Assembly: GCA_947492585.1 (NCBI GenBank)
Contig: CANLND010000020.1
Coordinates: 1 to 64,000, forward strand
DNA length: 64,000 nt
Source: an uncultured Paracoccaceae bacterium
GTDB taxonomy: Bacteria; Pseudomonadota; Alphaproteobacteria; Rhodobacterales; Rhodobacteraceae
Reading direction: 5' to 3'
In this document: piece by piece, positions 108-3,379 of the stretch
How positions within the stretch are numbered: position 1 is the stretch's first letter
How the letters are laid out: the number at the start of each line of letters is the position of its first letter
Made by a program: the position numbers and the translations under genes
Notes under the pieces: generated by a model
What the model saw: the letters and a program-made list of their open reading frames with translations, nothing else
Databases searched by the model: none
Told to the model about the DNA's origin: nothing

Positions 108-938
108 ATGACTGACAACAGCGCTCTGGTTGCGAAATTAAATGATTTGGATGTGGTTATTGCGGACCCTTTCCGTTTCAAAGCACGGCTGGAAATCGGC
201 GAAGAGGCGTTCCAGATGTTATCTCTTCGAAACAAGGCATTTGAACTCTGGGACGTTGCCGGAGCCTCTGTAACAGGAGCTGGGATCGCCGGATCCAGCG
301 CTGTCGCCTCGACTTTTTTCTCCGCTACAACCGGGGGTATTTTCGGTTTCTTTGGGGTCGCAACTGCTGCAACGCCTTTGGGGTGGATTATTGCAGCTGC
401 CGTTGCCTCGGGAGGGGCCTATTGCGGCGTGTTAAAGCTAATGCGGGGCATGACGGATGATCGCGTTGAGATTGTGCCTAAATTCATCAACACGCCGCTT
501 GATGTACTTGCTGTGTCTCTCTTCGATCTTATAGCGCCTCTGGGGCTGAAAGTCGCGGCAGCAGATGGGGACATCGCAGAAGAAGAACTGGATGTTATTC
601 GATCTTACTTCATAGATGGATGGGGATTTAACCCTGACTATGTGGAGGTGGCCCTTCAGGTTTTTGTTCTCAAGATCCATGAATTGCCGCTTAAAGATCT
701 GACCGAGGATCTTCGCAAGTTCACCTTGGAAAATCGGGATTGTAACCACAAGAAAGTACGGGAGAAGATCGTTCAGCTGCTCCGGGAGATCGCCGGAGCT
801 GATGGCCAAGTTCATGAGGTGGAAGAGTTGATGATCGATCACGTTTCGAAATTTCTACCGAAAGATCCGTGGTTCCAGCTTCCCAAACTCGGTGAGTTTC
901 CAAGACTTCCCAAGCTTCCAAGTCTGCGGAAAGGCTAA
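108..938 (+). CDS. TerB-like membrane-associated protein of unknown function
   Basis: Predicted protein of 276 aa. I chose the internal ATG because GAAGG lies about 10 nt upstream of it; the ORF track starts 25 codons earlier. Residues about 50-115 are Gly/Ala-rich and hydrophobic (ASVTGAGIAGSSAVAS, then FFGVATAATPLGWIIAAAVA), suggesting one or two membrane segments. The remaining C-terminal half is helical and acidic and carries two short repeats, KVAAADGDIAEEELDVI and IAGADGQVHEVEELMI. Such A-DG-x-hydrophobic-x-EE repeats are typical of TerB/DjlA-like helical domains, which may bind metal. Role unknown. It lies beside the decayed integrative element and may be cargo of it, but no boundary is visible. 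The gene runs close to the window edge, so an upstream partner cannot be excluded. Confidence 0.6.
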   Translation: MTDNSALVAKLNDLDVVIADPFRFKARLEIGEEAFQMLSLRNKAFELWDVAGASVTGAGIAGSSAVASTFFSATTGGIFGFFGVATAATPLGWIIAAAVASGGAYCGVLKLMRGMTDDRVEIVPKFINTPLDVLAVSLFDLIAPLGLKVAAADGDIAEEELDVIRSYFIDGWGFNPDYVEVALQVFVLKIHELPLKDLTEDLRKFTLENRDCNHKKVREKIVQLLREIAGADGQVHEVEELMIDHVSKFLPKDPWFQLPKLGEFPRLPKLPSLRKG

Positions 939-1166
939 CCCGCATCCCGGCCAACACCCTCGGTTCCCCAGTTGCGGGGGGCCGCTGCTTGCTGTCAAAC
1001 CGCCTCAGACTTCACCGAACCGCCCCAGTTATTGCCCCCGTTTTATATCGCAGTAGACTTGCTGTCCGTTGCTGGCGCTCGCGGGTGCCCCTCCCACGTC
1101 GCGGGAGATGGGTGTCTGGGGTGGCGTGGGGGCCGCTAGCAGGCTGCTGGAGGCCATAGCCACCGG
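939..1166. other. Gap with no gene recognised
   Basis: GC-rich stretch between the TerB-like gene and the HNH fragment. I see no convincing ORF, RNA or strong hairpin with a T-tract. It may be decayed sequence of the neighbouring element. Confidence 0.4.
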
Positions 1167-1430
1167 TTAGAGCAGACTGAAGTCCACACCGTTCGCCCAG
1201 TGCTCCCAGTCGTCTCGTTTGTTATCCCCCGCTGACCCCTCCACTAGATGTTCTGGCTGACAGCACCGCTCGTTTCCGCATCGATGACGCACCATCATTG
1301 TTTCCCCGATGACCGCCCGATTGAGTACACAGTAGACGAACCTTGCCGCCGCCACCTGCCGCCCTCGGAACCTTATCTTGGGCCGCCGTAGCGTGGAATT
1401 TTCAATATCAGCTGCCAGAATACAGAGAAT
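1167..1430 (-). pseudogene. HNH endonuclease fragment
   Basis: The frame reads RFVYCVLNRAVIGE, then VRHRCGNERCCQPEHL, then EGSAGDNKRDD. This matches the core of small phage/element HNH nucleases (H-x-C-x-N-x-x-C-x-x-P-x-H-L, then G-x-x-x-D-N-x-x-D). The ORF track begins at a GTG (1355), but the frame is open to 1430 and its upstream residues KIRFRGRQ also fit the family (basic strand before the AHR-Y motif). No good start codon or ribosome site precedes it, and the usual N-terminal W-x-G segment is absent, so it looks truncated. The family's AHR is replaced by AAR. It is probably a relic of the element that integrated at tRNA-Gln. A functional minimal protein starting at the GTG is possible but less likely. 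Confidence 0.6.
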
Positions 1431-1610
1431 TTATTTTTATTATTAAAAACAATATGTTGATGCCGCAATCGCCTCTCAGAAGCCACCAGGGCGCTCTTTT
1501 AGAGAGAACGTACGAATTTTTCAGCCGATTTCATGCCCTGCTCGCAAACCTAAATTCACTCTCTCCAGGGGCATGAAAGTTTTATCGGGACTGATTGGAG
1601 AGCAATAACA

Positions 1611-1790
1611 ATGGCAACAAATAAGCCAACGACCCCCAGCAGCGAAGACATCAAACTCATCAAGTTTCTCGCAGAGGTCTACGGCACCCAAATCGTTCGT
1701 CGTGACAATAAGTTCTACGACATCGAATACCTTGGCACCCCCCTGTCGCGTGTTGACGTCGAGATTCGGCGTCGTAGCCACGCTGCTTAA
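1611..1790 (+). CDS. Small orphan ORF, probably a truncated element gene (59 aa)
   Basis: Too short for the ORF track. It starts MATNKPTTPSSEDIKLIKFL and ends RRRSHAA. GGAGAG lies 8 nt before the ATG, a good ribosome site. The segment RRDNKFYDIEYLGTPLSR resembles N-terminal stretches of element or phage replication/primase-type proteins, but I cannot assign a family with confidence. Its stop codon lies where the opposite-strand integrase loses family-like sequence, so the two genes meet tail to tail at about 1785-1792. This suggests that both were cut by the same deletion and that the ORF is the 5' stub of a longer gene. Expression is plausible; function is unknown. Confidence 0.5.
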   Translation: MATNKPTTPSSEDIKLIKFLAEVYGTQIVRRDNKFYDIEYLGTPLSRVDVEIRRRSHAA

Positions 1791-3234
1791 TCCATTCGAC
1801 CAGGCCCAATTCCAAAAGAACTTGTGGGATCGGGACTACGCGTCGACTGGCGACGGTTTTCCCATCTTGCTCAACGCTCCAAGCAAAGCGCAAGCAGAAC
1901 ACCCCATCGTCATGCCAAATCAGGTCGCCAGCTTTGAGCTGCAGAACTTCGGTGAGGCGCGTTCCCATTGTCATGATGATCAATGGCACCCAGTAGATGG
2001 CATCCCGGATAAGCTTCTTTCCCGGGCGGGTGCGCCGGTTTAGACTGTAGCATCCCCGATAGATCGGCGACGTCAGCAGTTTCTTGAGCCGTATGCCACT
2101 CCAACGGGAACGCGTTTTGGGCCGTGTCATACGAAGAAAGAGCGGTTCATGCTTTCTTAGCTCCTGACTAAATGACTTCATTTCTTGCGCCAAAGCCGAA
2201 TAGGTGAGCACTTTGGTCTTTCCTGGGTATCCCAGGCTGGCGGCTGCTGAACGAAGGATGTCATGAACTCGGTCAAGATGGCGCTCAAGGTTCTTGTGCG
2301 TCATGCGAATTGACAGCAAATCTGGAAGCTTCGCCAGTTGTTGTCGCTCGCTGGCCCCAGGGATTCTGCGGACCATTTCATAGCATTCAGCATCGTGCGC
2401 ATCCGCTGCTGCAATTAATTCGCGCTTTGACACGGAAACCTCTTCTTTTTGATAGCGGTTCTTACCGTGCCTTTGGCCATGGTCGCGGGGTAGGCGATGT
2501 AGAAAACGGCAAAACTCGGTGATACGTCTTGCAGCTTGTTCAAGAGAGACATTCCCGAAACACTCCAGCAGTAGAGTGCCGGTAGCTTCAAGTTTGCGGC
2601 GCATTTCTGCGCTCTTTCCCTGCTTCGCGGTCTCAATGGCTGTCGCCATTGATATGAACGGCGGAATCTGGCCGTCTTTCGGAGCAATCTGAAAGCGTTC
2701 AAAAAGCCCTGCTGCGACTGCCAGCGGATCTTCAAAGTCTTCCAGCACGAAGAGCTCTGCTTTCCAGGTTGCCTTCAGGGTCGTCGCAAATTGCCTTGCG
2801 GCCCCGGCATCCATCAGATTGACAGGCGGCTCTCCAATTTTTTCTGCGACTTCCTTTGCGATCTGAGTAGGCCGCGAAAGGTCTCTCCCTCGTAATTCAA
2901 CCTGAAGGAGATTCAGCAGGGCACTTAGGTTCTGAATGCGCCCTTCAGCATCAAAGGCTGGATCAGATAAATTGCTGATTAGCTTTTCGAAATGGCTGCG
3001 AACTATCTCCCGCGAAATGGCGTGGATAGCTTCAGGTGTCGCTGGGGCTGTTGGCTCGATGAAAATCTTTTTGTCTCCTTCCTGGGGCACTGGAGGGCAA
3101 GGCTCCGGTGCGGGTGTGGGAAGGACGTGAGTCTTGATACGTTCGGACAGAAACGGGTTTGAGTGCGGGTTTGAATTATTTTTTGTTCGACTTACAGGGC
3201 TGTGGTCTGTGTTGGCTGCACGACTATCGCGCAA
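1660..3234 (-). pseudogene. Tyrosine recombinase (integrase), C-terminally truncated
   Basis: The 524-codon frame has a long helical N-terminal region, a SAM-like core-binding part, and the start of the catalytic domain. TMGTRLTEVLQLKAGDL carries the first catalytic Arg, followed by the beta strands RFAWSVEQDGKTV and RRVVPIPQVLLELGLVEWI. After VEWI the protein becomes unrelated Arg/His-rich sequence (RGYDAESRRQHATGG), which is the antisense of the 59-aa ORF. The second Arg, the His residues and the Tyr nucleophile are therefore missing, and it cannot be an active integrase. It lies immediately past the 3' end of tRNA-Gln, the classical attachment position. The start is uncertain: the track start is a TTG without a clear ribosome site. 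Confidence 0.75.
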
Positions 3235-3304
3235 AAGGAGCGCAACCGTGGCAGCATCGACTTTAAGTCGGTCTACTGATTTTATTGATTTTTTTCATGG
3301 AAGT

Positions 3305-3379
3305 TGGCTGGGATGGTAGGATTCGAACCTACGATACACTGTACCAAAAACAGTTGCCTTACCACTTGGCTACATCCCA
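3305..3379 (-). tRNA. tRNA-Gln (anticodon UUG)
   Basis: The reverse complement folds as a cloverleaf. The acceptor arm TGGGATG pairs with CATCCCA, the discriminator is G, and the CCA is encoded. The D-arm GCCAAGTGGTAAGGC is present, the anticodon stem is CTGT/ACAG with loop TTTTGGT giving UUG, and the T-arm is TAGGTTCGAATCCTA. The gene is intact even though the truncated integrase lies about 70 nt past its 3' end, as expected when the integrating element restores the tRNA 3' end. No second copy of the 3' end was found within the window to the left. Confidence 0.95.

Follow-up and report, generated by a model that had tools for sequence, protein, structure and literature searches.

Many islands and phage satellites of bacteria carry a tyrosine integrase and insert at the 3' ends of tRNA genes, among them the P4-like, PICI, cfPICI and PICMI groups. 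The arrangement of the yeast 2-micron plasmid is different: its two unique regions alternate with a pair of inverted repeats of about 0.6 kb, and an Flp/FRT-type site is present in each repeat. The recombinase is encoded by the element itself, and both isomers occur. Here we describe a locus beside a tRNA-Gln gene that led us to elements with features of both. It lies in a stretch of 64,000 nucleotides (the window) that forms positions 1 to 64,000 of contig CANLND010000020.1 from an uncultured Paracoccaceae bacterium (GenBank assembly GCA_947492585.1; Alphaproteobacteria, Rhodobacterales). We read the locus, with a probability of roughly 0.8, as a composite relic of two different tRNA-Gln-targeting mobile elements whose broken halves were joined by a deletion. 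The locus itself is dead. However, its dissection exposed a family of roseobacter elements with an inverted duplicate attachment site.

A truncated integrase at tRNA-Gln

The tRNA-Gln (TTG) gene (3305–3379, minus strand) is intact, and its 3' end forms the attL core TCCTACCATCCCAGCCA (3305–3321, minus strand). The next gene is an open reading frame (ORF) of 524 amino acids (1660–3234, minus strand) that encodes a tyrosine integrase (PF00589, phrog_1). A weaker match of this protein to the Pfam 'Recombinase' family (PF07508, E 0.0065) was under the curated cut-off and was discarded. Relatives of the integrase were searched for in 298 genomes of the bacterial family. The best of them have open frames of mostly 690–800 amino acids, and the eleven best matches end at query residues 483–486. 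When aligned with ten relatives (open frames of 536–955 amino acids), the window integrase follows them through the motif LGLVEWIK up to residue 483, a lysine whose codon occupies 1786–1788. Past this residue the relatives run on with LFPE, ALRK, GH and HYT, which include Arg II, His and Tyr, although ALRK alone is clear in one of them (L036). The window integrase has none of these C-terminal motifs. Of the complete catalytic set (Arg I, Lys, Arg II, His/Trp and Tyr), its first 483 codons (1786–3234, minus strand) retain Arg I (MGTRLTE) and the beta-hairpin Lys (GKT).

A tRNA-Gln gene adjoins the integrase in all twelve relatives tested, and the window integrase likewise lies directly downstream of one. 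In those intact elements with such integrases whose far end could be identified (G115, G146, G281 and G141), direct repeats of the 17-nucleotide core TCCTACCAYCCCAGCCA form the boundaries and stand 20–66 kb apart. Because the relatives adjoin tRNA-Gln and are bounded in this way, the window integrase is what remains, on the tRNA side, of a large island of ordinary type. By these alignments it is a truncated relic of a tRNA-Gln-specific integrase family of about 700 amino acids. The far-end core (attR) of this island was not found, as the genome contains a single core with at most one mismatch over 17 nucleotides. Likewise, a search with 24 nucleotides of the tRNA 3' end, allowing up to three mismatches, gave one match in the genome and hence no second copy.

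A reading of this DNA made from the sequence alone had described an intact tRNA-Gln adjoining an integrase that is cut before its catalytic C-terminus and keeps the first catalytic arginine, and had proposed that the element is specific to this tRNA. The comparison with relatives bears out all of these points, and the alignment that the reading had suggested fixes the last homologous codon. The two outcomes that the reading had named as speaking against decay were not observed: no full-length relative shares the C-terminus of the 524-residue frame, and the region is not conserved as such in distant genera.

A primase fragment, a terminal repeat and the junction between them and the integrase

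On the opposite strand, an ORF of 59 amino acids (1611–1790, plus strand) meets the integrase gene tail to tail. It matches the N-terminus of proteins of about 465 amino acids in three other genera, with 46–47% identity over up to residues 2–53, and 36% identity in the third relative. These proteins are DUF5906 primase/helicases (PF19263, E 2e-21; phrog_1156, DNA primase), and the PDB 'Primase' chains 6k9e and 6k9c match them at E 2e-13. Homology in the window runs to residue 51, whose codon occupies 1761–1763. Judging from this similarity, the short ORF is a genuine coding remnant that comprises the first 51 codons of a primase/helicase (1611–1763, plus strand). No relatives of it were found in plasmids or phages.

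Since the integrase and primase homologies both stop short, both genes have been cut, and the junction lies within the 22 bases 1764–1785. The tail-to-tail fusion of two genes had been recognized in the sequence-only reading, which placed the junction at about 1790. A junction is indeed present, but it is located about 5–26 bp to the left of that position. The missing half of the integrase is absent from the genome, where a weak match on another contig (C13, E 0.04) does not represent it, and the missing half of the primase is absent as well, its sole match being the window itself. A translocation or inversion was rejected because these halves are found nowhere else. As in the earlier reading, the fusion is best and most simply explained by the loss of a large internal segment. 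That reading also called the deletion old. However, this need not be so because the frame remains open over 483 codons of the integrase and 51 of the primase.

To the left of the primase fragment, an HNH segment (ORF 1167–1355, minus strand; PF05551, 9e-7; PF13392, 4e-6) encodes the C-terminal part of a protein of the HNH_3 / zf-His_Me_endon type. In two relatives (G091 and G066), a gene for an HNH protein of 124 amino acids follows the primase gene, and the pair is enclosed by inverted repeats of 448 nucleotides (98% identity) and 527 nucleotides (100%), respectively. These repeats start with the tRNA core and include the 3' end of the HNH gene. Window positions 937–1395 are 73% identical in DNA sequence to both arms of the repeats in both relatives and correspond to the left terminal repeat of a primase element. 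The HNH ORF sits where the HNH end is found in the left repeat of these relatives. It is therefore a regular component of an end repeat and not the debris of a decayed gene. This repeat copy of the HNH end and the primase N-terminus are the sole remains of the primase/HNH pair in the window.

The repeat alignment sets the outer end of the repeat at 937–953 (plus strand), where AACCCGCATCCCGGCCA shares 11 of 17 nucleotides with the core. When the 12 bases preceding it (925–936) were scored as the 'arm' of the family together with the core, this proved to be the best site in the predicted slot. Only six of 4094 other 31-nucleotide slots in the window score as high, and the intact tRNA core is possibly among those six. 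The arm and core (925–953, plus strand) are the decayed internal attachment site of the primase element, adjoining a terminal repeat with the HNH 3' end as in the intact family described below. A second attachment copy had been predicted to the left of the window. None is recognizable there, and the decayed copy within the window is the one that we could identify.

These observations point to two unrelated elements in tandem, where the sequence-only reading had seen one. The single-element alternative, in which integrase, primase and HNH segment all come from the same island with one internal deletion, would account for the clustering of all pieces in the 2.2 kb next to a single tRNA-Gln gene, and the two families do use the same core. 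However, the primase elements have an integrase of another family. This DUF6538 tyrosine integrase of about 430 amino acids (45–90% identity among loci) is found near the primase in 14 loci, and three of the genomes with primase elements (G091, G066 and G334) have no 700-residue integrase. An origin from a single element is for this reason improbable. In addition, the elements with the 700-residue integrase have an attR arm unlike the one in the primase elements and show no inverted internal core.

Some points weigh against the composite relic. The decayed core has just 11 of 17 matches. No close relative was found whose locus is undeleted or empty and would bear on the sequence of events. A misassembly at 1764–1785 is also conceivable in a draft assembly that comprises 83 contigs and is often broken at repeated sequence resembling an insertion sequence (IS). 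Under an assembly chimera, two separate loci would have been joined at this position. We consider this very improbable. No repeat is known at the junction, which is inside a 71-kb contig and distant from known repeats, and the missing halves are not present elsewhere in the genome. Furthermore, both partners independently belong beside tRNA-Gln, and their orientation and the decayed core fit the layout of the primase family.

The intact family and its two attachment sites

A scan of named genomes gave 22 primase loci, nearly all of them in Rhodobacteraceae. No primase was found at E 1e-20 among 385 genomes of the class, and the family therefore looks mainly confined to Rhodobacteraceae. In ten of the loci, long repeats (206–616 nucleotides, 89–100% identity) surround the primase and HNH genes, and mostly one end overlaps tRNA-Gln. 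Searching with the DUF6538 integrase yielded further intact elements. Seven elements of 7–14 kb, all in Rhodobacteraceae, have three cores (L084, L086, L104, L106, L149, L153 and L157). In all seven, the 17-nucleotide cores read +, –, + outward from tRNA-Gln.

The internal core divides each element into a module with replication genes (module A; primase and HNH, or a PolA-like protein) and a module with the DUF6538 integrase and cargo (module B). Module A is 2.4–3.4 kb long, is bounded by cores and has end repeats of 189–532 nucleotides with 97–100% identity. It is always situated between the tRNA gene and module B. Module B, too, has inverted arms at its ends; they are 69–266 nucleotides long and extend the repeat of module A beyond the core. 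An attP site rebuilt from the attR arm and the attL repeat equals the inverted internal site over 391–753 nucleotides with 93.9–100% identity in seven of seven elements. The elements have one integrase, repeats of hundreds of base pairs and a replication module.

In three loci, module A carries a protein of 510 amino acids (phrog_4756, no Pfam family) in place of the primase and HNH protein (L149, 1929–3461; L157, 4781–6319; L150, 2509–4038). D-F and HDSF motifs are conserved in the protein. The overall confidence of its AlphaFold model is low; however, the more reliable part of the model resembles family-A DNA polymerases (best E 4e-4), which suggests a divergent member of that family. With either a primase or a polymerase-like protein, module A is probably a replication module in both variants. 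The cargo of module B includes AbiP2-type defence reverse transcriptases (L097, 3927–5429; L153, 11071–12618), and a type ISP/IIG restriction enzyme is encoded beside a DUF6538-type integrase at L150 (4072–6819). Stacked arrays of elements occur at the same tRNA gene in three loci (L084, L104 and L153), and another array is on a contig without the tRNA (L097).

Other loci depart from this layout. Four (L098, L100, L108 and L115) have the integrase with primase and HNH genes and no detectable inverted repeats or tRNA-Gln core alongside, and are possibly an ancestral form with one attP. Primase elements are also present on short contigs of metagenome-assembled genomes attributed to distant phyla, namely a Candidatus Eisenbacteria (L103) and a Flavobacteriaceae (L111). 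The former, which carries the Rhodobacteraceae tRNA-Gln core, was probably misbinned.

Taken alone, module A resembles a transposon in its size and its nearly identical end repeats. Accordingly, the primase modules might be stand-alone transposons with terminal inverted repeats that insert at tRNA-Gln cores and are unrelated to the adjoining integrase modules. We regard this as unlikely because module B also ends in inverted arms that continue the repeat, the internal site equals the rebuilt attP over its whole length, and module A is always on the tRNA side. Insertion into att sites would not give such a layout.

A circle with two inverted attP copies would explain the layout more readily. 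In this model, which is the most likely one for the intact family, the integrase would excise an attL-to-attR circle in which two unique halves are split by the two attP copies. Either copy could be used for integration beside tRNA-Gln, and recombination between them would flip A against B. Such a circle explains why A is always next to the tRNA and can point either way, why arms are found on the B side only, and why both relative orientations of A and B occur. The orientation is the same in L104, L153 and L157 and the opposite in L084, L106 and L149 (3:3). With the attachment site duplicated in inverse orientation, one integrase could integrate, excise and invert the element. By analogy with the 2-micron plasmid, flipping while the circle is replicated by the module A proteins may convert theta replication into amplification by a double rolling circle.

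We propose tentatively, at somewhat less than even odds, that these elements multiply as such circles by integrase-driven inversion and form an independently evolved bacterial counterpart of the 2-micron plasmid that also integrates at a tRNA gene. The proposal has to contend with several observations. Inversion, and with it both isomers, could also result from RecA acting on the repeats. The orientation of G066 could not be scored, as its module B has no recognizable integrase. No circular or viral copies of the elements were found in plasmids, phages or IMG/VR, where the one distant integrase match was in a Paracoccus plasmid. Cultured strains with a testable form of the element include Ruegeria sediminis and Litoreibacter albidus.

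The window agrees with this family in order and orientation. As in L104, L106, L107 and G066, the primase reads toward the tRNA, and the end repeat, core and arm are on the far side. However, only the tRNA core and one decayed core are present rather than three, and the window is a remnant and not a complete member of the family. A third core would lie past the contig end. Beyond the decayed site is a gene for a TerB-domain protein of 276 amino acids (108–938, plus strand; PF05099, E 2.5e-14). From its position outside the arm and core, we infer that it is cargo of module B. Homologues of TerB are present in 14 of the 298 genomes, including that of the window, and a core was found beside none of the 11 loci examined, within about 1.5 kb on each side. 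The first 77 bases of the window have about 30 further matches in the genome (74–100% identity), nearly all at or within a few bases of contig ends, and also form the termini of more than 20 other contigs. They probably represent one end of an IS present in many copies, at which the assembly broke. Because the contig starts in this sequence, module B cannot be followed further.

The locus probably formed in three steps. A primase element would have integrated first at tRNA-Gln with, reading leftward from the tRNA, module A (HNH and primase genes between long inverted repeats), the internal inverted site, and module B with the TerB cargo and presumably a DUF6538 integrase. A larger element with the integrase of about 700 amino acids would then have entered the same tRNA 3' end and displaced the first. 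Finally, a deletion reaching from codon 484 of the integrase gene to codon 52 of the primase gene would have brought the two 5' parts tail to tail.

In the genus of the window (loci L059–L077), the sequence that follows tRNA-Gln varies between most species and marks an integration hotspot. Because this sequence differs in most of the 17 relatives compared, no attB could be read, and no empty site was found for the G053 element. The same 17 nucleotides serve at least two integrase families, which partly accounts for the heavy use of tRNA-Gln as a hotspot in this bacterial family. One locus of the genus (L070; G006, contig C4, 9954–11936) holds a 2-kb relic with remnants of a DUF6538 integrase between two direct cores at tRNA-Gln. 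Another (L069; G005, contig C18) has two tandem tRNA-Gln(TTG) genes with a distance of 280 bp between them, and the core is intact in both.

Comparison with known systems

A search of open-access papers, a coverage that leaves out most subscription journals and preprints, gave no account of elements of this kind, and the family with two attP copies is apparently undescribed. Its small HNH protein is of the same HNH_3 / zf-His_Me_endon type as homing HNH endonucleases. In contrast to those, its gene directly follows or overlaps the primase gene, and the 3' part of the gene is within the end repeat.

Like the PICI and P4-like satellites, the elements integrate at a tRNA 3' end, in this case through the 17-nucleotide core, and encode an integrase and a primase/helicase (phrog_1156). 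They are also similar in their size of 7–14 kb and in their anti-phage cargo, which comprises the reverse transcriptases and the restriction enzyme noted above. As far as the sequences indicate, the likeness is limited to gene content. No phage-hijacking genes were identified in the elements, and they have two inverted attP copies instead of one, with long inverted repeats that divide a replication half from an integrase half.

In layout the family corresponds to the 2-micron plasmid, with which it shares inverted repeats that each carry a tyrosine-recombinase site, two unique regions and the occurrence of both isomers. That the two also function alike is a hypothesis. Unlike the 2-micron plasmid, these elements have no identified partition genes; they are bacterial, they integrate at tRNA-Gln, and they encode their own primase or polymerase-like protein. 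If inversion does drive their amplification, the same copy-number trick would have arisen in bacterial integrative elements.
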